DNA from: Pseudoclavibacter sp. AY1F1
GTDB lineage: Bacteria; Actinomycetota; Actinomycetes; Actinomycetales; Microbacteriaceae
Assembly: GCF_002931075.1 (NCBI RefSeq)
Contig: NZ_PSTQ01000001.1
Location: 682,001-746,000 of the forward strand
Direction: 5' to 3'
Length of the DNA: 64,000 nucleotides
Shown here: piece by piece, positions 32,387-51,234 of the stretch
How positions within the stretch are numbered: the stretch's first letter is position 1
How the letters are laid out: each line of letters starts with the position of its first letter
Position numbers and translations under genes: made by a program
Notes under the pieces: model-generated
Databases searched by the model: none
The model's input: the letters and a program-made list of their open reading frames with translations, nothing else
Told to the model about the DNA's origin: nothing

Positions 32387-33667
32387 TCACCCGATCGGTG
32401 CGTTCATCCCGGCCGCCCAGTCACGGATCGCCTGTCGCTCGCTGTCGCCGCAGATGTACCCGTAGCCGCTCTCCTGGACACCGTCGCTCAGCGTCCATTC
32501 GTTTAAGTACGTCAGGGCGTAGCAGTCTGCCATGACCTCTTCGCTTCCCTGGAACAGGCCTTGCGCGAGGAGAGATCGGTAACCGCCGTCGTCGTCCGGG
32601 TACCTGACGTCGTCTGCGCGTTGGTACACGTGCGCGAGTTCATGGACGGTGGTGATCGTGCTGTGCCACTCGGTGCGCTCGCCATCGGGGAGGAGGTGCA
32701 CGATCAGTGGGCTGCCGCCCTTGACGCATCCCACGGTCTGGTAGCCCTGGTCCGCGTTCTCGTGGGTGCCGCAGGCTGTCGCCGCGTCGTATTGGACGTC
32801 GATGAACCCGTTCCCGGCGGCGTCGACGATGCTCTCGCTCACGGATCCGCTCGCGTTCGTGCGGCGCGTCTCCGCGTCGATGATGCTCTGCTCGAGGTCC
32901 CCGCGGAAGGTGCTCGCCTGTGCGGCGATGCTCTCCGCCGAGTAGACGGTGAGGTTCGGGTCCGCCATCTTGGCGTCCTGGTCCTCCATCCAGTCGAACA
33001 GGGCCACGAGCGGCTTGACCGGGTTGCCTTCGAGCGCGCTTGAAAGCTCATCGATCTTTGTCCGCTCCTGCTCGTAAAGTGCGATGTGCTCGGTGAGGTC
33101 CGCAGCGCCGGTGTCGACGGGGGCAGTCTCGACGGAAGGGTAGGGGGTCGTGGACTCGTCGCCAAGGCCCAGAATCGCACCGAGGCTGGCGAAGGCGAAC
33201 AGACCCATGAACGCTATGACGACAAGGCAGCCGCAGCCCGCGAACCAGTACCCCGCTTTCCCGTTCCCGCGCGGCGGGAATGGGCCTCGGCCTCGGCCGG
33301 GGGCGTAGGGGGCTGCGGTCAGCCTCGGCCGCAGTGGATGCTGGCTTCGGCCGAGGTTGGTAGGACCCGCGGCCGGCCCTTGGAGCGGCGGGGGAGGCGG
33401 CGAGGGAGGCCCGAGGCCTGGACGTGTCTGCGGCGGCCGAAGACCACGCGGCTGCGGCTGCGGCTGCTGAATGTTGCTTTGCGGTTGCGGATTGACTGAC
33501 CGACTGACACCGTTCATCCAACGGATCAGCTCGGGTGTGGCGCTCGGGTTCGCGGCGATGTACGGACGCAGATCAGGACGGCGCGTGGCGATGTTCGTCA
33601 ACACGTGCGGCGGCGTAGCCGCAGCTCGCGCCGCTGCTCGATCCCGGTCCCATCCCGCGTTTGCCAT
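32387..33667 (-). CDS. LRV-domain, membrane-anchored protein with HELAH zinc-peptidase motif
   Basis: The 426-residue protein starts MANAGWDRDRAAARAAAT, with GAGGAG upstream. Residues 10-50 match the variant leucine-rich repeat type (DLRPYIAANPSATPELIRW). A Pro/Gln-rich linker follows, then a transmembrane helix (about 155-180, GCGCLVVIAFMGLFAFASLG). The outer domain contains TVHELAHVYQ and GSEEVMADCYAL, the HExxH plus distal Glu/Asp layout of a zinc metallopeptidase, and several Cys residues likely paired outside the cell. Enzymatic activity is inferred only. Confidence 0.75.
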   Translation of the reverse strand: MANAGWDRDRAAARAAATPPHVLTNIATRRPDLRPYIAANPSATPELIRWMNGVSRSVNPQPQSNIQQPQPQPRGLRPPQTRPGLGPPSPPPPPLQGPAAGPTNLGRSQHPLRPRLTAAPYAPGRGRGPFPPRGNGKAGYWFAGCGCLVVIAFMGLFAFASLGAILGLGDESTTPYPSVETAPVDTGAADLTEHIALYEQERTKIDELSSALEGNPVKPLVALFDWMEDQDAKMADPNLTVYSAESIAAQASTFRGDLEQSIIDAETRRTNASGSVSESIVDAAGNGFIDVQYDAATACGTHENADQGYQTVGCVKGGSPLIVHLLPDGERTEWHSTITTVHELAHVYQRADDVRYPDDDGGYRSLLAQGLFQGSEEVMADCYALTYLNEWTLSDGVQESGYGYICGDSERQAIRDWAAGMNAPIG

Positions 33668-33826
33668 TGCACTCCTCGTCGTCGGCCCTGCAAGCGAGTG
33701 TAGGTCTGTCCGAACGCCGAACGCCGCGGTGCCGCAGTGGCGCCGTCGAACGCACGCGTCACGCCGCCTTCCACGCGTGCCACAGGCCAGACGACGCTCG
33801 AGCACGCTGCCGCCTAGCATGAGATC

Positions 33827-34351
33827 GTGACCTACCCCAATCATCTTCCTCACGCCACCTTCTCGGGTGCACTCGGAATCGGCGGCAGCTACGTGCCCGC
33901 AAACGCCGAGATCGCTGACAGCTGGATGACCCTGTGGGCACTCGCTCCCGAGGGCTGGGTCGTCGTCTTCCGCGCACCTGCGTCCGAGGTCACGGTGACG
34001 TCGAGGGCGCAGAGCATCCACCTCGCCGTCGGGGGAGTGAAGCACCCGCTGCTCGCCGACCCGGGTGCCGTGAACCGCGCGCTTGGGTACACCACTGCAG
34101 GCACGGTCGCAGCGGTCCTCGATCGTCCTGTGGCCGGTGCCGCAGCGGACGTCGGCGCACTGCGGAACCAGATCTCGGCGGCCTCCGCGTGGAGCGCGGG
34201 CGGCGGACCACAGTTCCTCGACGCTGCACGCCAGTCCGGCGCACGCGTCTCACGCCTCGGCTACGGCGCCATCGCCGCCATCGGCTGCGGCTCGGGTATC
34301 GCCGTGGTGATCGTCGTCACCGTGCTCACGGTCCTCGCGGTCAACCTCTGA
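33827..34351 (+). CDS. Tail-anchored membrane protein of unknown function
   Basis: A 174-residue protein with a soluble N-terminal domain of about 145 residues and one C-terminal transmembrane helix (GYGAIAAIGCGSGIAVVIVVT). I recognise no family. The start is a GTG; TAGCAT at 33815-33820 ends six bases before it, so the mRNA is probably leaderless. It is divergent from the HELAH gene, and the two may share regulatory sequence. The 200 bp after it hold no gene. Confidence 0.65.
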   Translation: MTYPNHLPHATFSGALGIGGSYVPANAEIADSWMTLWALAPEGWVVVFRAPASEVTVTSRAQSIHLAVGGVKHPLLADPGAVNRALGYTTAGTVAAVLDRPVAGAAADVGALRNQISAASAWSAGGGPQFLDAARQSGARVSRLGYGAIAAIGCGSGIAVVIVVTVLTVLAVNL

Positions 34352-35805: not shown

Positions 35806-36708
35806 TCAAAGTCCCGGAGGCGGTGTGAGCGACTCCAGGGCCTGTGCTGAGAGTGCGCGCTGAAGGGATCGGGCGGATGAGAAACCCGATTGGTCCGCGA
35901 TGAGCTCGAGCTCAAGTGTGTTCGCGTGTCCTCCGATGAGAAGCTCCTGAGCGATGTGCAATCGTTCCGACCGCAGAAGCCGTCCGGGGGTCGAGCCTGA
36001 CGGTTTGAACAGTCGGTGGAGATGTGCGGTTGAGACGTCGAGGTCATGGGCCAGACGAGCCACGCTGTAGGCCCGATCGTGCGCCTTGCGCTTGATGCGC
36101 TCGATCGCAGCGGCTGCGCCTGCTGGCGGTTGTTTTCCGGAAGCTTGGCTGACTGCCGATTGCAGAACGGCTAGCGCGAGCTGTTGTAAGCCCGAGGCTG
36201 CAAGCCCGAATCCTGGAGATTCAAGAGGAGCATCAGCACTGAGGACCGCCATGACAGCACTCAGGAGAGTTTCCCGGTACACGGCGGCCCCTGAGAGCGG
36301 GCGGGCTTGGGTGCCTTGTGGCAGCCAGGGGTCGACACGTGAACTGGGTAGTCCCAAGAACAAGAGAGCCCCAGAGTCAGCGGCGTGAAGCTCAAACGGA
36401 GTAGCTACAGGATGCACAAACAAGCTTGGCGCTTCCAAGGCGTGAGTGGTGCCCTCGATGGAGAGGGAGCGTTTGCCCGTAAGGGGCAGAGAGACGTACG
36501 AGAGCTCTTGCTCGGTCCGGATCGGAACAATCTGGAGGCTCATGGGGGTGCTCCACACACGCCCTAGGACAAGGGAGGGAGTTGTGATGCGCTCGCAGAC
36601 CACCCGGATCAATACCGATTGGTCGACGTGCGTGACATGCCAGCCCTGTTCGCGCATCCAGTCGACGGCAGCAGTTCCGTTCATGTCAATTCGGTCGCGA
36701 GGGTGCAA
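35806..36708 (-). CDS. AraC-type transcriptional regulator (island copy 1)
   Basis: The 300-residue protein has an N-terminal sensing domain (about 1-185) and a C-terminal AraC helix-turn-helix domain (SVARLAHDLDVSTAHLHRLF and a second helix near ELELIADQSGFSSARSLQRAL). It is a clear paralogue of the regulator at 46,654: compare GTAAVDWMREQGWHVTHVD with GTAALNWMKTQGWHTTYAD. A TTG start at 36708 aligns exactly with the start of that paralogue; an ATG lies eight codons further in. It is divergent from a glycine-rich exported protein, which it probably controls. Confidence 0.82.
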   Translation of the reverse strand: MHPRDRIDMNGTAAVDWMREQGWHVTHVDQSVLIRVVCERITTPSLVLGRVWSTPMSLQIVPIRTEQELSYVSLPLTGKRSLSIEGTTHALEAPSLFVHPVATPFELHAADSGALLFLGLPSSRVDPWLPQGTQARPLSGAAVYRETLLSAVMAVLSADAPLESPGFGLAASGLQQLALAVLQSAVSQASGKQPPAGAAAAIERIKRKAHDRAYSVARLAHDLDVSTAHLHRLFKPSGSTPGRLLRSERLHIAQELLIGGHANTLELELIADQSGFSSARSLQRALSAQALESLTPPPGL

Positions 36709-37020
36709 AGGTGCTCTTTCCGTCGAGTCGAAAGGACTCCCAGATTCGCGTTCGGGGGATCCGCAGAGTGGCATGTGCGTCAGGTGGCAACTTTGCGTGG
36801 GCGGTGAAACTTGGACGGCGATCGGTGGGTGTCCGACTTCACGAACTACAGCACAGATTCACTAATTTGTCTCACGAAGGTACCAGAATCTCTCCTGTCC
36901 AGTCGCGGCGGACTGCCGACGATCATGCTGAATCCGATACCGCAAGCTTGGAAACTTCCCGTGGTGCCTGATTCCCGACACACTCATGCCCCCGACAACC
37001 GCGTAGACGAAAGAAGCCCC

Positions 37021-37974
37021 GTGAACGACAGCACCCCCGACTCCAAAGTCAACCGAAGGTCACTCGTGCAGGGGGCCGCTTGGAGCATCCCCGTCCTCGC
37101 CGCTGCCGCTGCTGTGCCCGGAGCCGCCGCTAGCCCGTGCAGTACCCCTGGATCTGCGACACAGACCGCACGCGGGACTTACACGGTGATCGTGCCCGGA
37201 TGCGCAACGACCATTACGTTCTCGATCGACGGAGGTGCCGGCGGAGGGTCCGGGACCGCGGGTGGTTCTGGTGCCCGCATCGCGGGCACGCTGTCACTTC
37301 CCTTCTCAACCACGGCGCGCACATTCACTGTGTACGTAGGAGGAGGCGGTCAACCTCGCGGAACCACGACGGCGTTTACAAGCACCGGTTACGGGGCTGG
37401 CGGCACTGGAGGATTCAGAGGAACTGCACGGGATGGTGGCGACGGCGGTGGCGGCAGCGCGATCTTGCTCGGCACCACAGCCATTGTCGTTGCCGGAGGT
37501 GGCGGTGGCGGCGCAAACGCGCAGTCGAATGGCACCGTCAACCCTGTTACATCTGGGATCGGCGGGTCCGCTGGCCCGACGCCGCAGAATGGCGGCGGAG
37601 GTACGACGGGTACCACGACCACGCAAGGTGGGTTCGCGGCGAATGGAGCAGCAGCTGGTCCAGGCGGTGGCGTTCAGGGTGCGAATTACAGTGCAGGTGC
37701 TGCGGGCACCGCAGCGCCCGGTGGAACGGGTGGCGCCGGCGGATCGATCCCGAACAGCGGCGTCAATGGCGGTGGCGGTGGCGGTGGCTACGCCGGCGGT
37801 GGCGGTGGAGGGGCCCGAATGGTGTCGGCGCCGAACGGCGCAGGCGCTGGGGGCGGTGCAGGTTCGAACTACGTGGGCGGCGGGGCGAGCATCACAGTCG
37901 CTTCTACGACTGTAAGCGCCGGGAACGGCGGGGGCTCGACCGGCGGCAGCGGACGTTTCTCGATGAGCTGGTAG
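37021..37974 (+). CDS. Tat-exported glycine-rich protein 1
   Basis: The 317-residue protein starts with a GTG. Its N-terminus has a twin-arginine leader, NRRSLVQGAAWSIPVLAAAA, with a likely cut after AAAS near residue 39. The mature part has a short Cys-containing section (CSTPGSATQ and VPGCATTITFSID) and then a long region dominated by glycine, with GGGGGGGYAGGGGGGA and GGGAGSNYVGGG near the end. This layout resembles the glycine-rich domain found in ALK-type receptors and some bacterial proteins. No cell-wall sorting signal or C-terminal helix is present. The role is unknown. Confidence 0.75.
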   Translation: MNDSTPDSKVNRRSLVQGAAWSIPVLAAAAAVPGAAASPCSTPGSATQTARGTYTVIVPGCATTITFSIDGGAGGGSGTAGGSGARIAGTLSLPFSTTARTFTVYVGGGGQPRGTTTAFTSTGYGAGGTGGFRGTARDGGDGGGGSAILLGTTAIVVAGGGGGGANAQSNGTVNPVTSGIGGSAGPTPQNGGGGTTGTTTTQGGFAANGAAAGPGGGVQGANYSAGAAGTAAPGGTGGAGGSIPNSGVNGGGGGGGYAGGGGGGARMVSAPNGAGAGGGAGSNYVGGGASITVASTTVSAGNGGGSTGGSGRFSMSW

Positions 37975-38044
37975 GTCATGCCCACGCAGCGTTGAAACCG
38001 ACCGCGTCGTAGGCGAAACGTTGATCGATTTCATTCGAAACTTT

Positions 38045-38072
38045 GGAGCGCCCCTTTCCGGAGGGGCGCTCC
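38045..38072 (+). terminator. Hairpin downstream of glycine-rich gene 1
   Basis: GGAGCGCCCCT and AGGGGCGCTCC form an 11-bp perfect stem with a six-base loop, 70 bp after the stop. There is no T-run, so its role as terminator is uncertain. The 390 bp from here to the IS relic show no gene. Confidence 0.55.
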
Positions 38073-38460
38073 TCGCCGAAGTTGCTGGGACATTGTTCGC
38101 ACCTCGTCGGTATCTCGTTCATACACCGGGCTCGCTGCCTCAGCGAGGCGATCTGGAGCCACGATCCACGGGCGAGCACGCCTCGCGGTGCGACACCAAG
38201 ATCCTGAAGAGTCCCTATCCCCTTCGACATTCGCAGCAGTGAGAGACCTGACTTCGGGCGCACGAGGACCAGATCAGCGCACGAGACACGCACCAACTCA
38301 GCCTTCATCGCTCTCGCACGACGTCACTTCCGCGTCCTTCACGCCATGTTCCGAGAAGCGCTATCTACAAGCCACTCGTATTTGCCGCCTGACGAAGGTG
38401 GAGTTAACCTCCGGTCGTGCACAGCGATTGAAGCAGGCAGTGAGGCCCGCTGGACTGGGT

Positions 38461-39353
38461 GTCCTGAAGAGTTCCAGGAAAAAGTACACGCCGGAGTGCC
38501 GGATCGATGCCGCGAGGTTGGTGACCGCGACGGGTCGTCCGGTCGCGCATATGGCTGCCAAGCTGGGCGTCGGCGGCGCATGGAAATCGAATTCTTGGGA
38601 GATGCAGCAGCCTACTTCGCGTCGAAGCCACCACGCAGGAACGGTTCGAGCTTACTGACGCGGTGAAGGCAAACGACGGAATCGGTCAAATGGCCCGGCT
38701 CTTGAACGTTTGGAGAACGCAGTGTTGCGCCTGGCGGTCCCGCCCGGCAGCGCCCGCAGCGCAGCAACAAGCAGCCCTGGATTGCCTTGGTCAGGACACG
38801 CACCACTCCTCAGGAGGCCTGTATGGGCCGCCGTGAGTCCGCGGAACTCGCCGCTCACGGCGTTCAGCCGACGTGAGAGTGGTCGCGATATCAATGCCCC
38901 TGCACGGGCTCTAGCACGTCGCGCACGTTCCGCCTCGTGAGCACGATTCCGGGTATTCTCACGCACGCCATCCCGGACCTTGTCGAGGGCCGCTGGGACC
39001 AGGGAGCGCTCAACCCGGTTTGGATCTCGGACATCACCAACACATCCGACTCAGCCCACGACGCCTGCGAGCAGCTCGGGCTGCGCCGCTCCGCGGGCGG
39101 GCCAGACCAGGATTTGGTGGGACAACGTGACGGCAGAGTCGTTTCGGTCAACCCTCAAGACCGAGTTCTACGACCGCCGTTCGTGGCCCACTCGAGCCGA
39201 AGCGAAGCTCGCCGTCGCCGCCAGGATCGCGACGTTCCAACAACCACCCACCACGCCACTCAGCGCTCAACTACGCGAGCCCTGTCGATTACGAACGAGG
39301 CCTCGCCGCCACAGGCCACGACCACAAGCAGCTCACGCTCGCTGCCCAACTAA
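38461..39353 (+). pseudogene. IS3-family transposase relic
   Basis: Pieces of OrfA appear first (RKKYTPECRIDAARLVTATG and MEIEFLGDAAAYFASKPPRR in another frame). OrfB pieces follow: NDGIGQMARLLNVWRT, PDLVEGRWDQGALNPVWISD, DNVTAESFRSTLKTEFYDRR and HSALNYASPVDYERGLAA. Several frameshifts and the loss of the middle part with most of the DDE core show that the element is dead. I could not see intact terminal inverted repeats. Confidence 0.75.
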
Positions 39354-40152
39354 CTGTTCACGACCTGGGGAGAATCCCAGATCGCCTGACTTCATCCATC
39401 GATCCACGCCAACCAAACAAAACGCACGCTTCGTGCCATCGGTGACGTTCCGCACCTCCCAGTACTGACCAGGATTGGCGGGCAATCCATTTCTTCAAGT
39501 ATGCATCGTCCATCACCGAACGGACTGGCCTCGTGTCGGTACTAAGCGCGGCGGATGGCCAGGACTCCGCGAGCTGCAGACGTTCGATTGCAAATCTCTT
39601 GAGTCTCAACATCTCTGGACACACAACGCCGCGCGATCGATACCAAAGTCGAATGGTTCCTCTTAGATGAACGGAGCGACGACTGTCCCACGTGCCTGTT
39701 GCCCGAAGCCGACCAAAGCCCGAAGGGACTCAAGAGCTGGCAACATCAGGAGGTCCTGCACGAGGACACGACCGACGAGCCCCTGATCCGTAATCTCTGC
39801 GCCGAGCTCGCGCAGTGTTCAACGCGCGAACTCGACGAATTCAATTGGCCACAGGCCGCTATGGTCGAGCTTTCGCGCGTTTTTCGCACTGCGGGGGAAA
39901 GGGCAAACAGTGCACGTTGCCAGCGATCACAAGGCGCCCCCACCCTCCGGAAAGCATATACGAGGGAGTGCGGATCAGCGAATAGCCAAGGAGAAACCGC
40001 ATCCACCAGCACGGATACTGCCTGGACGTGTCCCCCCAGGCGGCACCCCAACGGATTGTTCCCGATGTCGAACCGAAAAGTACCCTTTGCTTGGCCATTT
40101 GCTCTCTACCTGACAGTTTCACGAATGAATAGTTCACAACCAGGAGGCCGTC
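39354..40152. other. Gap of 0.8 kb without a convincing gene
   Basis: Short open frames exist on both strands, for example one reading LCAELAQCSTRELDEFNWPQ near 39,800, but none has a good start or codon pattern over its length. The last 80 bases, with AGGAGG at 40141-40146, are the leader of the next gene. Confidence 0.5.
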
Positions 40153-41262
40153 ATGACGCAGAATTTCGGGAACAAAGACAAACCAACTCGTAGGACGATC
40201 GTTCAAGGAGCGGCATGGACACTCCCCGTGCTTGTTACTGCCGTGGGCGCGCCATTAGCAGCAGCGTCGTGCGGTGATCCTGGCGAGTTCACCCTGACGG
40301 CGGGCGCCCCCGGTACTGCGGGAGCTTCCAGCACTTGGATCGTCCCTCCGTGCGTCACGCAGATCACGGTCACGATGGTGGGCGGTGGCGGTGGCAACGG
40401 AAGACGAATCCCGACCGAGCCTTCCTTCTCCAATGGCTTTGGAGCCGCGGGAGCCCGGGTAACCTCGACCATCACCGTCACACCAGGACAGATCTTCAAT
40501 CTCATAGCTGGAACGGGCGGCCGGTCGGGACCATCGGCGGGGGACGCGGCCGCTGCTGGCGGAAAAGGCTACGGGAACGGGGGCGACTCACAGGATCCGA
40601 CTGGTCCCTCGGCCAACTCCACCACGGGCGGGGCCGGTGGTGCCGGAACCGCGCTGTTCCTCGGAACTACACTCCTTGTCGTTGCTGGTGGTGGTGGTGG
40701 TGGTGGTTCCTTCGACGGCAACGGCCAGTCAAGCGTCGTCACTGTGAATGGTGGAAACGGTGGAACCGGTGCAAGTCCTGGCACCGCCATTGCGGGTAGC
40801 TCCCGATCTGCCATCGATTCCAACTTCGCGACGCAGTTGGGTGGGGCGTCAGCCACCGGCGCTTCAGGGGGCGCGGCTGGCCTGATCGGCACGGGAAATG
40901 CCGCAAACGTCAATCGCGCGTTCGGGGCCAACGGTGGCGGCAACGGAACCGGGCAAGCAGGCGGAGGCAATGGCGGCACCGGTGCCTCGATCTACGGGGC
41001 TCAAGGCGCTCCGAATGGTAGTTCTTCAGGCGGTGGCGGCGGCGGGTACGCAGGCGGTGGCGGCGGTAGCGCTGTGCGCGTCTGGGCTACAACCCCTGGC
41101 ATAGGTGGTTCGTCGAGCGGAAGTGGTGGGGGCGCAGGCAGCAACTTCGTAGCGGTCGCCCCCATCATCGTTGCCAGTACCCCAGGGGTCGCCGGGAATG
41201 GTGGCAGCGTCGCTCCTTCCAGCAGTGGAGGCCCTGGCTCGATTGTCATCACCTGGGGTTAG
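40153..41262 (+). CDS. Tat-exported glycine-rich protein 2
   Basis: The 369-residue protein has the leader TRRTIVQGAAWTLPVLVTAV, cut probably after AAAS near residue 38. The mature protein begins CGDPGEFTL, then has CVTQITVTMVGGGGG and GFGAAGARVTSTITVTPGQI, followed by a glycine-rich body with GGGGGGGYAGGGGGSAVRVW and GGGAGSNFVA. It is homologous to the protein at 37,021 in order and motifs. A strong AGGAGG and a terminator frame the gene. A surface or matrix role is inferred from export and composition only. Confidence 0.78.
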   Translation: MTQNFGNKDKPTRRTIVQGAAWTLPVLVTAVGAPLAAASCGDPGEFTLTAGAPGTAGASSTWIVPPCVTQITVTMVGGGGGNGRRIPTEPSFSNGFGAAGARVTSTITVTPGQIFNLIAGTGGRSGPSAGDAAAAGGKGYGNGGDSQDPTGPSANSTTGGAGGAGTALFLGTTLLVVAGGGGGGGSFDGNGQSSVVTVNGGNGGTGASPGTAIAGSSRSAIDSNFATQLGGASATGASGGAAGLIGTGNAANVNRAFGANGGGNGTGQAGGGNGGTGASIYGAQGAPNGSSSGGGGGGYAGGGGGSAVRVWATTPGIGGSSSGSGGGAGSNFVAVAPIIVASTPGVAGNGGSVAPSSSGGPGSIVITWG

Positions 41263-41265
41263 CTG

Positions 41266-41307
41266 AAGGAAGAGGCCGGCCTGGGCATGCCCCGGCCGGT
41301 TTCCTTT
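41266..41307 (+). terminator. Terminator after glycine-rich gene 2
   Basis: AAGGAA/TTCCTT and GGCCGG/CCGGCC form a two-part stem that begins four bases after the stop codon and ends in TTCCTTT. Confidence 0.75.
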
Positions 41308-41615
41308 GGCTGCACCAGCAGCACTGTTCGTCGAATTTTGCCCATCGAAGTAGATTGTCGGCGTGACTGTGTTCCCTGGAACAACGACTGTCTGGCAGTC
41401 TCGTATTTTCGCGTGAACGATTCCGGCCTACTGCGCGGGCCCGAAAAGGCTACCTCTTCCGGATTGCGCGCTTCCGACCGATCTCCAGTTCCGACTCGGG
41501 AGCCCCTGGGGTCCGGAGCACGGGGGACTAACAGACGTCGCCCATTGCTGCCTAGTGCACGTAACATCAGGATCGGTCCTCAGCCATCATTTCGTTGGTG
41601 AGAACTGAGAGCGCG

Positions 41616-42625
41616 CGTGGAGCGCGGGCGCTCCACGGGAGTGAATATCTTCCGCCAACCTTCGGTCCAGTTTTCGAGACGTGGCGTATTCGCGGAACAC
41701 GCCTCGACCCTTAGACCCGCACACACGTGACGACGGAAGTCGTGCGTCGGCCGAATAGATGTCGAGGATGACTAGCGCGCTCCACTGTCTCTGGCGGGGA
41801 ACCAGCCCGCACAGTGTCACAAGTGAGATGTCTGTCGACGAGAACCTGTTGTCGGTCAGCAGCGAGGAGCGGACGTCCGTGACAGTGCTTCGACGCTGAA
41901 TCGTGCGTGCGGTTTACGCACCCCAGCATGCGTGCGTGAAGCCGGCGCCTACGTTCTGGCTCATCACTCCACGGGGCTCTCCAAGACGCCGCCCATACAC
42001 AACTATATTGCCGACAAGGTTTAAACGAAGCAAGGGATCCCGGTCCGTCTTTCCCCAGAAACAAGACGGACCGGGATTGAATGACGACGGACTTCCGTCA
42101 TCCTTCACGTTTCGGGTCGTTCCCCAACGGAACCCGAAACGAGTCAAGTGGTCTCACTCCACGAGATCCAGCGTGGTTCACCCAACCGGCGGCCCGAAGG
42201 AAGACACGGGTACGACGGGCTGCGGTGCTGTTTCTGCCTCGCCGCTCGATCTCCAAGCACGAACAACCGCCAGTGAGGACGTGCTGCTGGTATTCTCCGA
42301 TTCCTGCAGAGGAGGGCCTGACCCGGGTGCCTGCGGGGGGCAGACGCCCGGGTCAGGTCGAGTGTCGACAAGGAGTCCCAGTTCCCTGCCGACGGCTAAT
42401 AATCCGACGCACTGCCCCAACCTTGGGGAGCGAATCAGCATGAAGATGAATATACGCAACGGACCTCCGACAGCTGTCCGCGGCCTTTTCGGGAAATTGC
42501 GACGCTAACGAAGCGTGCTTGGTCCGCATTGCGAAAGATCCATTGACGTTTACAGCCACATTCGTCGAAATAGTGGAAGAAGGGGGAGCCGGGTTCTCGC
42601 ATGTCCCCAACATGCGACAACCCGG
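41616..42625. other. Hairpin-rich non-coding segment
   Basis: Six strong stem-loops lie between two convergent genes with no credible coding frame: 41616-41637 (arm CGTGGAGCG), 42037-42077 (ATCCCGGTCCGTCTT, 15 bp), 42086-42099 (GACGGA), 42108-42141 (CGTTTCGGGT with an inner CGTT stem), 42317-42357 (CCTGACCCGGG) and 42589-42625 (CCGGGTT and TCGCATGT with one mismatch). None is followed by a clear T-run. The arms are not copies of one another. They may be structured RNA, recombination sites or old termini. Confidence 0.6.
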
Positions 42626-42829
42626 ACGAAGAAGGCACTGCTGCGCCGTTGCCCCCGGTTGTGCGTTATGCCCCGCTCGGAATTCGATTGCCCTCTATAG
42701 ACGGGGTGGAGAGGCTATCGTGCTTCAAGCGATGGATTCCCCCTTGTGCGTGCGCCGAGGAGCAATAGGAGGCAAATCGATCCATAGTTGACCCAGCGAA
42801 GGTGCGGGCAAATCCCGGACGTCCAGTAC

Positions 42830-43669
42830 CTAGCAGACGGTGACGTCGAACTTGATCTGCGAGATCGAGATGAACTGCCACCCCTGGGTACCGCCGACCT
42901 GCGTGTAGTTCATCGTCGAACCCGACGGGAACGAAGCGAAGGAGAAGGTATCGGCGAAGTCCAGCGTTCCCGGGGTCGCCTCGTCCGCAGTAGCGCGGTG
43001 GTAGGGATCGGCGAGGGTACCGCTACCTGCACCCGGAAGGGCGGAACCACCGTTCGTGATCGACGTTGGCGGCGTGCTGAACCCGACCGCGTCGCGGTAA
43101 CTCCCACGCCACCCAGTGAGGCCTGGGGCGGGGTTCAACACGTTGCCAGAAGAGATGTCGAAGACGGTGATCTCGAAATTGGTCGGGTTGAAAGTCGCTC
43201 CCGAGGGATCCTGGAACGTGAAAGTGAGCGTCTGAAGCGGTACGGCGCCGGACGCTGGAGCTGACGAACCCTTGACACGCTGGTTGAGGGTCAGCGCGCC
43301 GTTCTCGCCGAAGCCGCTGAACGGGAAGTCCTGGCTCCCATCATCAGCGTAGCCGCCGTTCCACCCGGAACCGCTGACTCCCATATTGAAATCAAACGGG
43401 CCGCCGTATTTTGCGTTTGCCTGGGACGTCTCCGTTCCGCTGTCAACAACCGTCGACACGAGGAGCTTGTACGATCCAGTGCCTCCTGCCGGCGTGAAAC
43501 TGTACTGAGCGGGGTCGCCTTGGACTGCGACGGTTTGTGTCACCGTCTCGACACAACCCGAAGCCGCGGACAGGGGTGCACTTGTGGTAAGCGCTATAAC
43601 GGGGACAGTCCAGGCTGCTCCCTGGACGATCGTTCTGCGCGTCAGTCCGCGATCAATATCTTCGGTCAT
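42830..43669 (-). CDS. Tat-exported protein 3 (not glycine-rich type)
   Basis: The 279-residue protein has the leader TRRTIVQGAAWTVPVIALTT, nearly the same as in the two glycine-rich proteins, with a cut probably after SAAS near residue 37. The mature part starts with a Cys (GCVETVTQTV) and ends with one (FDVTVC), so a disulfide between the ends is possible. The body looks beta-rich (QTLTFTFQDPSGATFNPTNF). I do not recognise the fold. AAGGAG precedes the ATG. It is divergent from the LuxR-type gene. Confidence 0.75.
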   Translation of the reverse strand: MTEDIDRGLTRRTIVQGAAWTVPVIALTTSAPLSAASGCVETVTQTVAVQGDPAQYSFTPAGGTGSYKLLVSTVVDSGTETSQANAKYGGPFDFNMGVSGSGWNGGYADDGSQDFPFSGFGENGALTLNQRVKGSSAPASGAVPLQTLTFTFQDPSGATFNPTNFEITVFDISSGNVLNPAPGLTGWRGSYRDAVGFSTPPTSITNGGSALPGAGSGTLADPYHRATADEATPGTLDFADTFSFASFPSGSTMNYTQVGGTQGWQFISISQIKFDVTVC

Positions 43670-43741
43670 GTGGATTCTCCTTCTGTGGATCCGATTGCTG
43701 GCATCACCTGCCGTTGCTCATCGTGTTGAGACTGAGAGGGC

Positions 43742-43791
43742 ACCTCTTGCCTTCCCGGAGCGTTGTCTAGCCGCCTAGGAAGGCAAGAGGT
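43742..43791. promoter_or_regulatory. 14-bp inverted repeat between exported protein 3 and the LuxR-type gene
   Basis: ACCTCTTGCCTTCC and GGAAGGCAAGAGGT are perfect inverted arms, 22 bases apart. They lie in the 365-bp divergent intergenic region, 73 bp upstream of the exported protein start, where an operator for the neighbouring regulator would be expected. Confidence 0.55.
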
Positions 43792-44034
43792 CCCGCGTGG
43801 GGCCCTGCAAGGGCCGACTGCCAGAGTGGGTGTCGTAGCTCGCGTTCGGAGATCCCCCTCGACGTGGTCTCTCTGCCGAACATCACTATTGACTGGTTTT
43901 CGTCTCTCGCACAGCGATTCTTCAGAACCTCACCCGACATCTACACCTCCACCACCTCGGCATCTCTCACTAGAGCGTGCACACTTCATGGAGAGGTCAG
44001 ATTCAGCCTCGGATCTCGATGCAGAGGAGTTGAA

Positions 44035-46281
44035 GTGCCGGAAGAGACACCTCACAACGATCACTCGCTGACGCCCAGAGAGATTGCCGCGAAGCTGATT
44101 GAAATCGGAATGCCTGAGGGCGAGTCCAGAGTTCGAAGCCAACAGCTTTTCCGGGCCACCCTGGGGCACCGGGGGGTCATCGACGCCTTCTGTTGTCGTC
44201 AAGACGCGCTGGCGGCGAGTCCCAGACAGCTTCAAACAGTCAATGATTTCGTTCTCGAATGGTGGCGGCACAGTGACGAGATTTCGCGACTCGTGGACGC
44301 CTTCTCCACCTCACTCGAAGTGGACCACGCCGACGGCTTCCACTCACTGACCGTGCTACTCGCGGCACCGATCCTGACTGCAGATCTTTGCGAGCAGCTC
44401 ATTCGGACAAGTTTGCTGCCCGACCGGAGCCCAGACCAAGTTATGAGCGCGGCCGTCGGTCTGGGACTTGTAATTGACGACGCAGCCGGGAGACGACTGT
44501 CAAGCCCCGCCTTGCACCGGATGGCCACAGGAGTCTCCAAAGCAGTTCTGGGCGAAGACGCCGACCGGCTATGGACAGTGCTCGCGGATTTCAGCGAGCG
44601 TGCGGGCGACTTCGACGCTGCTTTTGAGTTCAGGTGTGCTGCGGGTGATTTCGTTTGGCTCGAGAGCCGCCTCGAGGCGGACCCGAGTCTGTGCGTCAGT
44701 TCCGCTGCAACGATGGCGGCGCAGAGCCTATACAGCCGAGACCTGAGCGCCGTTCGGAGATCCCCGCTCTTGCTGGCGCTGCTTGCTTGCGAGAGTCTGG
44801 AGGGGGCCGTGACTGCGTCTCACGCGTTGCGGCGACTCCAGAGCTTGCGCGAGCAACACCACGCCCCACTTCCGACCTCGAATAGCGCGCAGCTCGCTGC
44901 CGTCGTCCTGCTGGATTCACTGCTCGGCCCAGGAGCGGATTCAGGTGAAGCGTTGCAAGAGCGCCGCAACAGACTACTCGCCGCGTTGCGCTCCGAAAGC
45001 ATCCGATCTGACAAGCAAGCGACATTTGCTGCCCTATCCGTTGCTCACAGCGCACTCCTCGACAGCGACTTCGCCCTCGCCTTCAACACCGCGGAGCTGG
45101 GGCGCGTCCGCTCGCTCAAGGCGCAGATTGGCTCGAGCAGCACACTCAGGCGGGCGCTCACCGCGACTTCAGCGTACGCCGCAATGAGGCTCGGTGAAGT
45201 CTACCGAGCAACCCAGATCCTCGAGCTCGGCATCGACGAAGGACATGCTGTGTCCGCGGTCGATTACTGGGGCAACTTCTCTCGCCTGACCACTGCACTC
45301 ATCGCCACGGAGCGCAACGTCGCGGAGGAAGCCCTCGAGACCATCGACCTCGTGGCGCCGTCGCTCAGCAATTCACCTGCCTGGCCACACCTCGTGCATG
45401 CGCGAATCCGTATCGCCCGGAGGTTCACGGCACTCGTCCCGGATCAAATACTCGCGGCTACTGAGCTCATCAACTCCGGATGGCAGTACCAGTCTGTACT
45501 CGAAAGCCAGTGGCAGGTGACTGAGCCGATGGACGACGAGACCTCTCACGACTATTCCTACCGTCAGCTCATGCAGCCGGGGGTTCTCCCGCCGAAGACT
45601 GCAGCCCAGTTCACGCTCGACGTCACAACCTCGATGCTCATCGCTCGCTTCCTTAAGTACGCCCACCGGGCGGTGGTGCGCAACAAGACGCGACACCAGA
45701 ACGCACGCGAGCTCGCGCGTGGCTGGCACGCACTGCACACCAGTAAGAACGAGACCGCGCTGAGATGCGCGAGCCAAGTCGACCGAGAGTCATTGGTGTC
45801 CCCGTATCACCGAGTCGAAGCATTCGCGCTCGAAGCGGCTGGCTATTGGGAGGTCGGAGATCAACTCAGAGCACTCGTTGCCTTTCGAGGAGCACTCGGA
45901 CTTATCAAAACCTCAGGACCGCACGCAACCGCATTCGCGCTCGTTCCACACGAAACGCTGGTCGCTCTGCGAGCCTCGTTCGTCCAAGCCCCCGACACCA
46001 GCGAATCTCTCGCCGTGACCTTCGATGGGCTCGAAATTGCTGGCCTGGAAAACTTCTGGCGCAAGACGGTGCGGTTGACGCGCCGCGAGCAGGAGACGCT
46101 GACGCTCGCGGCAGCTGGACACAGCACACAGGAAATCGGCGACCGGATGTTCATCAGTTACAACACCGCCAAGAGACACCTCTCCACCATCTACCAGAAA
46201 CTTGGCGTTACGTCGCGCAGGGACGCCATTAACATCGGTCTCGAATACGGGTTCATCGCCCACGATGAGGTGAACGATTGA
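44035..46281 (+). CDS. Large LuxR-type transcriptional regulator
   Basis: The 748-residue protein ends in a LuxR helix-turn-helix (VRLTRREQETLTLAAAGHST, then GDRMFISYNTAKRHLSTIYQ). The long N-terminal part is alpha-helical, with repeat-like helices resembling the TPR region of MalT-like regulators, but no ATP-binding loop is visible. The GTG start at 44035 has AGAGGAG at 44023-44029; the frame is open further upstream without a ribosome site. It is divergent from exported protein 3, which it may control. Confidence 0.8.
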   Translation: MPEETPHNDHSLTPREIAAKLIEIGMPEGESRVRSQQLFRATLGHRGVIDAFCCRQDALAASPRQLQTVNDFVLEWWRHSDEISRLVDAFSTSLEVDHADGFHSLTVLLAAPILTADLCEQLIRTSLLPDRSPDQVMSAAVGLGLVIDDAAGRRLSSPALHRMATGVSKAVLGEDADRLWTVLADFSERAGDFDAAFEFRCAAGDFVWLESRLEADPSLCVSSAATMAAQSLYSRDLSAVRRSPLLLALLACESLEGAVTASHALRRLQSLREQHHAPLPTSNSAQLAAVVLLDSLLGPGADSGEALQERRNRLLAALRSESIRSDKQATFAALSVAHSALLDSDFALAFNTAELGRVRSLKAQIGSSSTLRRALTATSAYAAMRLGEVYRATQILELGIDEGHAVSAVDYWGNFSRLTTALIATERNVAEEALETIDLVAPSLSNSPAWPHLVHARIRIARRFTALVPDQILAATELINSGWQYQSVLESQWQVTEPMDDETSHDYSYRQLMQPGVLPPKTAAQFTLDVTTSMLIARFLKYAHRAVVRNKTRHQNARELARGWHALHTSKNETALRCASQVDRESLVSPYHRVEAFALEAAGYWEVGDQLRALVAFRGALGLIKTSGPHATAFALVPHETLVALRASFVQAPDTSESLAVTFDGLEIAGLENFWRKTVRLTRREQETLTLAAAGHSTQEIGDRMFISYNTAKRHLSTIYQKLGVTSRRDAINIGLEYGFIAHDEVND

Positions 46282-46653
46282 AGCCGTGATGCGAGAAGTC
46301 ATGGCCATCTGACGCTCAGCAGTCCGTTCCTCATTCGCCGGCGTGACAGGCAATCGTCCGGAGTCTCCAACGATTCAGGCTTCCGTACAAGAGTGCGGCA
46401 GCACATTTCTGCTCAACAGGTCACGATAAGAGTGACATCTCGTAAGGCTTCTCCGACAGCAAGCTTGATACATCACGCTCGGGTGAAAGCGAGTTCCCAC
46501 CCAATTACACGCCCCACGACTGGCTCGAACCAGCGAACAGGATACTTCCTTCGCTCGGAGGAAGGTACAGGGTTCATTCCTGTCTGTCTGGGGCGACCGT
46601 AGACCGATACTGCAGCTCCCACAACGAACACGCGACCTGACCATGAGGCACAG
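46282..46653. other. Gap between the LuxR- and AraC-type genes
   Basis: No coding frame is convincing in these 370 bases. A small inverted repeat (CTTCCTTC and GGAGGAAG near 46,550) is the only structure seen. Confidence 0.45.
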
Positions 46654-47619
46654 ATGCTTACACGTGACCGAAGAGATCTGGTGGGCACCGCCGCCCTTAA
46701 CTGGATGAAGACGCAAGGCTGGCACACCACCTACGCAGATCCGACCCAGGAGATACGCGTAGTTAGCGAACGCCTGTGCACAGGAACGTTCGCGATGGGG
46801 AGAATCTGGCACACGCCCATGACAGTGGAAGTACAGCCACGGCCCGTCGACGATGGACACGCACTCATTACGCTGCCGCTTACCGGGTCACGCCGAATCA
46901 CGCTGAACGACAGGGAGCACAAGCTCGAAGCTCCGGACATACTCGTGCATCCCGGGCAGACCACTTTCGAGCTGCATACCGATAGTCCCGGAGCCCATGC
47001 CTTCTTCGAGGTCCCGAAAATTCTCTTGCAGCCTTGGCTTTCGCAGGCATGGGACGTGCGCCCCATTGTGGGCGCGCCCGGCTACCGAGACACGATCGTG
47101 AGCGCTTCCATGGCAGCTCTCAACAGCACCTTCACCGCGGATTCGGCCGCCTCTGCCAGTTGGGCGGCAGGTATGCAACATCTCGGACTGGCAATGGTGC
47201 AAAGTTCGCTTGACATGTCCCCGGCCCAATATCAGCCCGACCTCGTCGGCAAGGCGCGCAGCCTCATCAGAGCGAAAGCACACGATCCGAACTACAGCAT
47301 CGCTAAGCTCGCTGCTGACCTCAACATTTCGACGACGCATCTCCACCGCATCATGAAGTCTGGCGGCAGATCTGCAGGACAACTCCTAAGGTCGCAACGA
47401 ATTTCACTAGCACGCGGCCTACTTCGCGAAGCGGACCCCAGCGCCGCGGAGTACCAAAGAGTCGCAGAAGTCGTTGGGTTCACCTCCGCGCGCGTGCTCA
47501 GGCGATCGCTCGCACGAGAAGACTTAGACGCGAGATTACCTTCGGACTTCCTGACACCCTCAGAGTCTTATACACAGAGCCATTCGCCTCAATCTAACCG
47601 GACGAATAATGATAATTGA
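46654..47619 (+). CDS. AraC-type transcriptional regulator (island copy 2)
   Basis: The 321-residue protein is the paralogue of the regulator ending at 35,806, with the same length of sensing domain and the same HTH layout (SIAKLAADLNISTTHLHRIM and AEVVGFTSARVLRRSL). Shared motifs include GRIWHTPM versus GRVWSTPM and TLPLTGSR versus SLPLTGKR. GAGG lies eight bases before the ATG. A polar tail of about 30 residues is specific to this copy. No exported protein gene follows directly; an IS481 relic does. Confidence 0.82.
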   Translation: MLTRDRRDLVGTAALNWMKTQGWHTTYADPTQEIRVVSERLCTGTFAMGRIWHTPMTVEVQPRPVDDGHALITLPLTGSRRITLNDREHKLEAPDILVHPGQTTFELHTDSPGAHAFFEVPKILLQPWLSQAWDVRPIVGAPGYRDTIVSASMAALNSTFTADSAASASWAAGMQHLGLAMVQSSLDMSPAQYQPDLVGKARSLIRAKAHDPNYSIAKLAADLNISTTHLHRIMKSGGRSAGQLLRSQRISLARGLLREADPSAAEYQRVAEVVGFTSARVLRRSLAREDLDARLPSDFLTPSESYTQSHSPQSNRTNNDN

Positions 47620-47944
47620 GTCCGTCAAATATAACAAAGCTATGATGAGTCTGCGGGTCGCTGCTTCAGCCCGCCGCTACGCCCCTCACCGACCCTTTTT
47701 ACGACCCCAGGCCCACGACATCTCGTCGGGTAGAGAAGGGCGAGGTATCGAGGCAATCGCTGTGCGATGGTGGCAACGGTTTGCGCCCAAAGCTACTCGG
47801 TCTGCGATCTTTGCTGAGATTCCCGATACGACTCAGGGACCAGGTGGACTCCGCCGTGACGTCGGTGACACGTCGGATCTATTCACGTGACGAGGTCTCC
47901 TGGCTTAGCGGAGATGCCTGGTCCCGCCATCCCCAGGAGGCCCT
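47620..47944. other. Gap before the IS481 relic
   Basis: The stretch begins A+T-rich and shows no gene. Its right part probably belongs to the end of the IS481-like element. Confidence 0.4.
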
Positions 47945-48752
47945 ATGTCCTTCGCCAATGCCCGTCTCATGGTTCACGGTCGGCGGTTGCTGGTCGAACG
48001 AATCCTCTTCGACCGTCGCCCATCGTCTCATGTCGCGCGCGAGCTCGGGTGTCGAGGCACTGCGCGCATCGCTGGGTCGCTGGTTTCCGAGCGGAGGGCC
48101 TGCTGGGTCTGGTCGATCAATCGAGCCGCCCACACCGATCACCCTCGAAGACTCCGGTCGAAGCGCGCGCTGGTAGCGCGAGAGCGGCTGCGGTTGGGCC
48201 CGGCCCGGGTCGCGCGTACTGAAGCCTCACGGGGCTGCGCCGCTGGCGTCGTTGGGCCCGGTGACCGGGGCCTCGATCCGCGCGCATCGATCCACCACGA
48301 AACGCTACGAGCACTCCGATCCCCGGTGCTTGATCCACATCGAAGTGGAGAAACTCGGGCGAATCGCGGAAGGCTGGTGCGCGCACGGCGGTTTGCTCTC
48401 GAACCACCGCTCACGCCTCGACCGGGCGCTAGTCGCGTTCGGCTGCGTGTACGCCGCGGTCGCTGACCAATCCCGGCCGGCCCACGCGGAGATCTACCCG
48501 GACGAGCAAGGCGCCACAGCCGCCGGGTTCCTCACCCGGGCGGCGCCCTACTTCGCCGACCACGGAAAGTCGAACGCTTTATCCGTACCCTCGCGAACGA
48601 ATGGGCGTATCGCCAACCATTCGTGAGCACCACGGCCAGACACGATGCTCTTGCGTCTGGAACGAGGGCTGCAACACTGGACGCTTCCACTCAGACAACG
48701 GACTCACGCCCGCCGTCCGAGTGTCACCAACCACATGACTCAGTACATCTAG
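47945..48752 (+). pseudogene. IS481-family transposase relic
   Basis: The start MSFANARLMVHGRRLLVERI matches the IS481 transposase N-terminus. Later pieces lie in other frames: PVTGASIRAHRSTTKRYEHS, LIHIEVEKLGRIAEGWCAHG, YAAVADQSRPAHAEIYPDEQ, ERFIRTLANEWAYRQPFVS and the terminal VTNHMTQYI followed by a stop. Multiple frameshifts make it non-functional. Confidence 0.75.
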
Positions 48753-50551: not shown

Positions 50552-50581
50552 GCGGTGGGTGATGCGGGACTCGAACCCACG
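50552..50581 (-). repeat. attR: 30-bp direct repeat inside tRNA-Val
   Basis: Identical to 34556-34585. It spans the last 25 bases of the tRNA and five bases beyond its 3' end. Confidence 0.9.
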
Positions 50582-50628
50582 ACCTCTTCCGTGTGAAGGA
50601 AGCGCGCTACCAACTGCGCCAATCACCC
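50557..50628 (-). tRNA. tRNA-Val (CAC)
   Basis: The 72-base gene folds with acceptor GGGTGAT/ATCACCC, an anticodon stem CTTCC/GGAAG around TTCACAC (anticodon CAC) and a T-loop GGGTTCGAGTCCC. CCA is not encoded. Its 3' end is the integration site of the island, which leaves the tRNA intact. Confidence 0.95.
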
Positions 50629-50865
50629 GCGACGAAAAGTAATCATGCCATAGATCCAGGCGCTCCATGAGCACCGCTGTATGCGAGACGCGGTCGTGTC
50701 GGTCAGTCGAGGTGCCGAACTCGACTGCCCGGGATCCGGAAGCCAAACGCGGGCGGGGTGAGCGCGTCTGCGTCGGTCCGGTAGGCCGAGATGCGGGGAT
50801 GGGCTTGAGTGCCCCTCGGCGACTTGCCGCCCCGACCAGGACTTTCGTCGAATTACACCGGTGGA

Positions 50866-50894
50866 TTTTGTATCGCGGCCCGAGTTCCTATAGA
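50866..50894 (+). promoter_or_regulatory. Candidate promoter of the tRNA cluster
   Basis: TTTTGT at 50866-50871 and TATAGA at 50889-50894 are spaced 17 bp apart, about 50 bp before tRNA-Gly. No gene is seen in the 318 bp between the divergent tRNAs. Confidence 0.4.
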
Positions 50895-50946
50895 GTCATT
50901 CTCGCGCTGGTCAAGCCGGAACGGAAGTTCCCGAGACAAGCGCAAT

Positions 50947-51017
50947 GCGGATGTGGCGCAGTGGTAGCGCATCACCTTGCCAAGGTGAGGGTCGCGAGTT
51001 CGAATCTCGTCATCCGC
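50947..51017 (+). tRNA. tRNA-Gly (GCC)
   Basis: Acceptor GCGGATG/CATCCGC; anticodon loop TTGCCAA gives GCC; T-arm GCGAGTTCGAATCTCGT. CCA is not encoded. Confidence 0.95.
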
Positions 51018-51082
51018 TCGAGTGTGACTCAGTCTGGTGGTAAACACCAAACAGAGTTTGCACGGGTTTCAACCCACAACAC

Positions 51083-51153
51083 GGTGACGTGGCCGAGAGG
51101 CGAGGCAGCGGCCTGCAAAGCCGTCCACACGGGTTCGAATCCCGTCGTCACCT
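51083..51153 (+). tRNA. tRNA-Cys (GCA)
   Basis: Acceptor GGTGACG/CGTCACC with discriminator T, the base required by cysteinyl-tRNA synthetase; anticodon loop CTGCAAA gives GCA; T-arm ACGGGTTCGAATCCCGT. Confidence 0.95.
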
Positions 51154-51159
51154 CGCAAT

Positions 51160-51234
51160 GGGCGATTGGCGCAGCGGTAGCGCGCTTCCCTGACACGGAA
51201 GAGGTCACTGGTTCGATCCCAGTATCGCCCACCA
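51160..51234 (+). tRNA. tRNA-Val (GAC)
   Basis: Acceptor GGGCGAT/ATCGCCC; anticodon loop CTGACAC gives GAC; the 3' ACCA is encoded, unlike in the neighbouring tRNAs. It lies six bases after tRNA-Cys, so they are co-transcribed. Confidence 0.95.

Follow-up and report, generated by a model that had tools for sequence, protein, structure and literature searches.

The generic Tat signal peptide consensus comprises two arginines, any residue, two hydrophobic residues and an AxA end, and in the tapA-sipW-tasA matrix operon of Bacillus a signal peptidase is linked to matrix protein genes, with polysaccharide genes as partners. In the PEP-CTERM/exosortase (EpsH) system, a tag on diverse proteins correlates with exopolysaccharide genes, and the paper on it names actinomycetes among the lineages without an example (PMC1569441). 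We report here on a locus at positions 35806 to 47619 of a 64,000-nucleotide stretch of Pseudoclavibacter sp. AY1F1 DNA (contig NZ_PSTQ01000001.1, 682,001 to 746,000; the window), which encodes three predicted exported proteins with one type of N-terminal leader, two AraC-family regulators and one LuxR-type regulator. We favor, with a probability of roughly 0.57, the reading in which an export-and-matrix system, dispersed over the genome, has this locus as a satellite module and is built from a Tat-type tag, a linked peptidase, a polysaccharide layer and local AraC/LuxR switches. More tentatively, and at somewhat less than even odds, these parts would make up an actinobacterial system that sorts proteins in connection with exopolysaccharide, as an N-terminal counterpart of PEP-CTERM. 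Its fixed RR-AAW-P-P-AAS tag would be recognized both by a dedicated signal peptidase and by Tat, which in one lineage would be a private TatA-TatC pair, and dozens of diverse matrix proteins would have their dosage set gene by gene through captive AraC/LuxR regulators.

The route we propose starts from diverse, often unrelated proteins that carry a 27-residue N-terminal tag and that would be exported by Tat, as the twin arginine and a gene row in one genome (G020) suggest. A signal peptidase I encoded in or near leader clusters would, judging by this linkage, cut after AxA, and the freed, mostly unanchored proteins may then join an extracellular polysaccharide layer, in line with their neighborhood and surface-type domains; the putative genes for this layer (BY-kinase/Wzz, PqqD-domain P-loop protein and nucleotidyltransferase-like protein) adjoin leader clusters. 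From their position, more often on the 5' side, neighboring AraC or long LuxR activators may switch the outlying cargo genes, and the make-up of the coat could therefore be changed module by module. Overall, the leader set suggests an uncharacterized route by which actinobacteria may assemble a protein coat or the matrix of a biofilm.

As in PEP-CTERM/EpsH, a short tag marks numerous proteins that are diverse and show little homology, from few to tens in each genome, in environmental bacteria, together with exopolysaccharide-gene linkage and regulators of its own (PMC1569441). Relative to the same account, the leader tag differs in being N-terminal and Tat-like rather than C-terminal and of the PEP type, its linked enzyme is a signal peptidase I, and its regulators are local AraC and LuxR proteins rather than PrsK/PrsR. 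PEP-CTERM models were absent from the Pfam and NCBIfam matches of 134 leader proteins, a search by family model in which the motif itself was not sought directly. Because the tag stands at the other protein end and the linked enzyme is different, we do not file the leader system under PEP-CTERM/exosortase; it would work in a similar way but is probably not a member. With tapA-sipW-tasA it shares a linked signal peptidase I and polysaccharide partner genes, but its leader has a Tat-type RR, its cargo is numerous and diverse, and its peptidase fits TIGR02227; no TasA-type family was found among the Pfam and NCBIfam matches of 134 of 138 leader proteins.

The leader itself follows a 27-residue N-terminal consensus, RR-x-V/L/I-V/L/I-x-G/A-A-A-W-S/T/A-x-P-V-I-A-x-A-x-A-x-P-x-A-A/S-A-S, and ends AxA-S. 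The twin arginine, with x and then two hydrophobic residues behind it, and the AxA end are as in generic Tat signal peptides, from which the leader departs in its near-fixed spacing and in the conservation of W and two prolines. A pattern search gathered 138 leader proteins, of which 128 have RR nine residues ahead of W; counted from W, all of these 128 carry P at +12, 90% have A at +16 and 99% have S at +17. This regularity is partly built in, because the pattern itself called for RR or RK, for W and for P+3, with several residues permitted near +12 and at the end; the set leaves out eight leader matches that do not fit the pattern, plus duplicates and very short ones. Among 39 leaders of the window's own genome, mean core identity is 0.545, and four-fold third-base identity at shared four-fold codons is 0.300 versus 0.301 expected: the leader is kept as a peptide, not as DNA. 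Recent duplication as the source of the common leader was rejected, because these third bases agree no more than expected.

The pattern had been described as rare in the original prediction, which does not hold: a leader profile (A1) built from 18 leaders finds 43 matches in the own genome (G000) at E<=0.01, and an order-wide sample has 86 of 396 genomes and 26 of 110 genera leader-positive at E<=1e-4. By the same profile, four congeners have 36, 26, 16 and 11 matches and five other congeners none, and 12 of 60 genomes are positive (E<=0.01); in the order-wide sample outside the own genome, each positive genome has 1-12 matches, with at most 19 candidates scored per genome. In the own genome the leaders are dense on contig C28. 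A literature search found, in the collection covered, no text containing any of six leader core peptides and, judged by titles, no description of the leader among the matches listed.

TatC is present in all 12 leader-positive genomes of the 60 (as one gene in the own genome), and the two TatC-free genomes among the 60 have no leader match. G020 has three TatC genes, one of them at C10:86166, where the open reading frames (ORFs; locus L094, 4245-7606) run in the order leader gene (minus strand), signal peptidase I, TatA, TatC and leader gene (all plus strand). Related signal peptidases I are found at leader loci of G000, G005, G007, G020 and G133 and, after further loci had been fetched, also of G001, G002 and G288; of the 20 genomes sampled, eight, which belong to at least four genera, thus have the subfamily at leader loci, some loci having been added after the first peptidases had been seen. 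A leader gene lies within about 2.5 kb of the peptidase in 7 of those 8 genomes. The linked peptidases match the general bacterial signal peptidase I profile TIGR02227, and extra cysteines are common to those aligned. A shorter second copy in the own genome (G000:C28, L046 3332-3967) lies ~7 kb from the complete one, and its catalytic serine region does not align.

In the own genus, the peptidase is surrounded by a P-loop/PqqD-domain protein, a BY-kinase-like ATPase, a phosphatase-like protein, a glycosyltransferase and an ORF related to the NTP_transf_5 protein of G020, and these neighbors occur in all or most of five species. The corresponding hub of the own genome (C28:100-117 kb) has a leader gene, a PqqD-domain gene, the peptidase and another leader gene in a row on the minus strand. 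The 20 genomes sampled at leader loci include 8 with BY-kinase relatives, 10 with PqqD-domain relatives and 8 with nucleotidyltransferase relatives. Furthermore, in a family of the order other than that of the own genome, two genomes of one genus (g37) have operon-like leader arrays: a nucleotidyltransferase, a BY-kinase and a PqqD-domain protein followed by six leader genes on one strand in G153 (L112 1010-10127), and a BY-kinase and a PqqD-domain protein followed by six leader genes on the minus strand in G400 (L111 966-13515). Two families, f1 and f10, have polysaccharide-type genes next to leaders. Of 18 genomes, judged by their first-round loci, 5 showed the peptidase and 5 the BY-kinase, 7 the nucleotidyltransferase and 8 the PqqD-domain gene; assuming 1 to 5 gene copies per genome, the chance probability is 4e-6 to 0.006 for 5/18 and 2e-11 to 6e-5 for the PqqD-domain gene and the nucleotidyltransferase.

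The window locus itself is laid out as follows.

35806..36774, minus strand: P0001, AraC-family regulator, helix-turn-helix (HTH) family HTH_18 above cut-off; divergent from the first leader gene
36775..37020, no strand: divergent intergenic stretch between P0001 and P0002, read in the sequence; presumed promoter region with a putative regulatory role
37021..37974, plus strand: P0002, Gly-rich leader-bearing predicted exported protein, leader RRSLVQGAAWSIPV...AAAS; cargo cluster 1
38188..39465, plus strand: transposase remnants, with an HTH_Tnp_1 piece in 38188-38655 and an rve_3 piece in 38941-39465
40153..41262, plus strand: P0003, Gly-rich leader-bearing predicted exported protein, leader RRTIVQGAAWTLPV; AGGAGG upstream of its ATG; cargo cluster 1
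42830..43669, minus strand: P0004, leader-bearing predicted exported protein, leader RRTIVQGAAWTVPV; cargo cluster 0, the largest
43864..46281, plus strand: P0005, long LuxR-type regulator, divergent from P0004; start codon uncertain
46654..47619, plus strand: P0006, second AraC-family regulator, HTH_18 just below cut-off and AraC_binding_2 below cut-off

The ORFs, leaders and strands of this set stand as first described, and all three leaders end AAS. The P0002 frame is open from 36811 (36811-37974), with GTG 37021, picked by eye, as its likely start; P0003 has a Gly_rich_2 match below cut-off, and the GerE HTH of P0005 (residues 738-789) scores 55.5 bits against a cut-off of 23.5 (E 4.4e-15). 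P0001 and P0006 are 41% identical, in keeping with the paralogy claimed for them, and the mature part said to be unrelated to the others is that of P0004, which clusters apart from P0002 and P0003.

Both regulator families are enriched beside leaders. HTH_18 matches lie <=4 kb from a leader in 11 of 22 cases in G000 (6.0% by coverage, p 1.4e-8) and in 16 of 25 in the congener G007 (5.4% by coverage, p 6e-15), and GerE matches in 5 of 22 (p 0.009) and 7 of 25 (p 3e-4), respectively, where 5-6% would be expected by chance; these counts include matches below Pfam cut-offs (HTH_18, two in G000 and one in G007; GerE, one in G007), and the p-values treat genes as independent, yet leaders cluster. 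P0006 has nine matches in its own genome, itself included, each within about 3 kb of a leader, and HTH_18 (8) and GerE (4) are the commonest Pfam families among the 61 ORFs that adjoin own leaders. Across 22 genomes of 13 other genera, picked because leader-bearing, 12 of 53 AraC-profile matches lie <=4 kb from a leader, where chance gives about 1.4%. These 12 are spread over six genera of four families and make up 12 of the 23 matches at E<=1e-15 and 0 of the 30 weaker ones, a split picked after the list was seen. The co-occurrence of exported proteins with these regulators, on which the original prediction had staked its refutation beforehand, is thus found in the own genome, in G007 and in six further genera of four families. 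Relatives of P0005 whose match starts at or before residue 666 number 12, nine of them beside a leader and three, all in G020, not. Regulators <=300 bp from the nearest leader are on its 5' side in 17 of 25 AraC and 9 of 14 LuxR cases, a count in which some LuxR ORFs may be shadow frames.

We based this neighbor analysis on ORFs and profiles, because gene calling by codon usage had overlooked most of the window genes considered here. G007 loci were partly picked via AraC matches, so that per-locus counts for G007 are too high, and genome-wide linkage counts are unaffected. The regulators resemble AraC/XylS proteins of the FeaR or AraC_binding_2 type in their C-terminal double HTH and in weak FeaR and AraC_binding_2 similarity below cut-offs, but differ from them in that the P0001/P0006 subfamily is linked to leader genes. 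When P0006 was modelled with P0001, the HTH came out fairly confident (block pLDDT 64-88 at residues 201-290) and the N-terminal domain unreliable; searched against PDB sequences, the AraC profile gave 14 matches, by name DNA-binding AraC-type proteins.

The proteins behind the leader are mostly without a described family. Pfam matched 8 families among the 134 of 138 leader proteins scanned, with at most 12 member matches and including RCC1 repeats (5 members), Ig-like, TIG and Gly-rich domains, and NCBIfam added choice-of-anchor G and choice-of-anchor C, two members each. C-terminal anchoring was set aside: the leader proteins, unlike LPXTG/sortase surface proteins, have no LPXTG near the C-terminus (0/138), and a transmembrane-like stretch is seen in 12 of 138. 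The largest cargo cluster (n=27) contains P0004 and the second (n=18) P0002 and P0003, and both also include a protein from the leader-dense stretch of C28. A profile (A4) of the mature part of P0004 and its relatives finds 16 matches, which fall in 4 of the 60 genomes, each belonging to the own genus; a leader precedes 16/16 by position, and an AraC or LuxR gene stands alongside 14, the exceptions being G007:C1:503730 and G001:C1:1327350. This profile has no match at E<=1 among PDB sequences, P0004 has none in viral contigs, scans of genome contigs with P0006 and P0004 gave no relative, nor did plasmid searches with P0006, P0003 and one leader protein, and the structure predicted for P0004 folded alone (mean pLDDT 31) is unusable. 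As a separate observation, cluster 3 (L098, L105, L071, L047, L096, L101) is a small leader-protein family with ~130 residues after the tag, in which an AraC gene lies <=3 kb from 6 of 9 members, in six genomes of five genera; it may represent an ancestral module.

These data fit the regulated surface or secreted structure that had been proposed, in both cargo and neighborhood, but place the whole system outside the window, which is probably one module of a repertoire that extends across the genome, with the likely partners for export and exopolysaccharide located on another contig. Roughly one in four of the order's sampled genera has the tag. Should it denote a route into an extracellular matrix, as many as dozens of unannotated proteins in a genome would become one functional class, a candidate peptidase and Tat partner would be named, and the local regulators would offer a means to alter the composition of coat or biofilm.

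Several observations weigh against such a system. No peptidase, Tat or polysaccharide gene of the linked kinds was found in the window, and membership of the window therefore rests on leader, cargo family and regulator family. The Tat pair stands beside leaders in one genome only, relatives of the G020 TatA/TatC being absent from the other sampled loci, and standard Tat models are absent among the matches listed for leader proteins, the rows of the 134 scanned proteins beginning at RR. The peptidase was not seen at the sampled loci (10-49 kb each) of 12 of 20 genomes, G153 and G400 included, and we have slightly lowered our confidence in both the satellite-module and the sorting-system readings because of this gap. 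In G007 the peptidase has no leader in the surrounding 34 kb (C3:14001-48000), the nearest being 25 kb off, with an AraC gene of the leader-linked subfamily ~6 kb away; signal peptidases with 31-38% identity to the linked one also occur in plasmid records from other actinobacteria. Matches to HprK_rel_A and PqqD_rel_X are far below cut-offs, and the HPr-rel-A system (TIGR04352/4353) missed its curated cut-offs, at best with 31.8 bits versus 200 and 21.1 versus 35. Finally, AraC or LuxR genes <=3 kb away are lacking by local profiles at 17 of 39 own leaders (one LuxR having been missed by the profiles) and at all 23 leaders sampled in nine other genomes, and the leader has the AraC gene on its 3' side in 8 of the 25 close pairs.

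The leader proteins might instead be ordinary Tat-secreted proteins that expanded within the lineage, mixed in function and in many cases with a local regulator, having neither a common matrix role nor a special peptidase, next to polysaccharide genes that share a common genomic hotspot; that the peptidase was not seen at the sampled loci of 12 of 20 genomes agrees with this. We consider this explanation unlikely, though it deserves the most weight after a common export-and-matrix system. The diversity of the cargo, with 36 of 138 proteins being singletons, also speaks for it, as do the many leader genes far from the polysaccharide hub, the leader density on C28 as a possible hotspot, and the low GC content at third codon positions (GC3, 0.55-0.75) of AraC genes at leader loci. 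It is at odds with the near-fixed spacing and peptide-level conservation beyond RR, with the polysaccharide-type genes beside leaders in two families, operon-like in G153 and G400, and with the peptidase at leader loci of eight genomes in at least four genera.

A diversifying repertoire for cell-cell or phage-host recognition, that is, variable exported surface proteins with private regulators, spread horizontally and expressed one or few at once, appears improbable. Copy number does differ strongly among congeners (43, 36, 26, 16 and 11, and none in five), transposase pieces and atypical codon use mark the locus, and no orthologue was found for the window module, because of which selection on the window genes could not be measured. 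Orthologous modules elsewhere are nevertheless under purifying selection: dN/dS, computed on stop-to-stop frames, is 0.075-0.583 in 12 pairs from three orthologous modules outside the window (AraC, LuxR and cargo), with eleven pairs below 0.34.

The surroundings of the six genes had been taken for a decayed island, for which weak transposase pieces and lower GC speak in part. The pieces are Pfam matches below cut-off (E 7.2e-4 and 1.3e-3), the 2-kb bins from 36001 to 48000 have 58.5-63.9% GC versus 63.4-68.3% in the remaining window bins, and GC3 is 0.62-0.73 in the six genes, two of them Gly-rich, versus 0.83-0.89 in four control genes; the intactness of other genes in the island was judged by Pfam scans of some pieces. 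Such transposase pieces and low GC3 would suit a decaying remnant without present function, which we nonetheless hold to be very improbable, as all six frames are intact and P0003 and P0004 have plausible ribosome-binding sites. Beside the island, 32390-34042 on the minus strand encodes a protein with an LRV_2 domain and, by eye, a HELAH motif, possibly part of a metalloprotease. A cluster of four tRNA genes (Val, Gly, Cys, Val) at 50554-51234, some 3 kb away from the stretch of atypical composition, marks a possible integration neighborhood.

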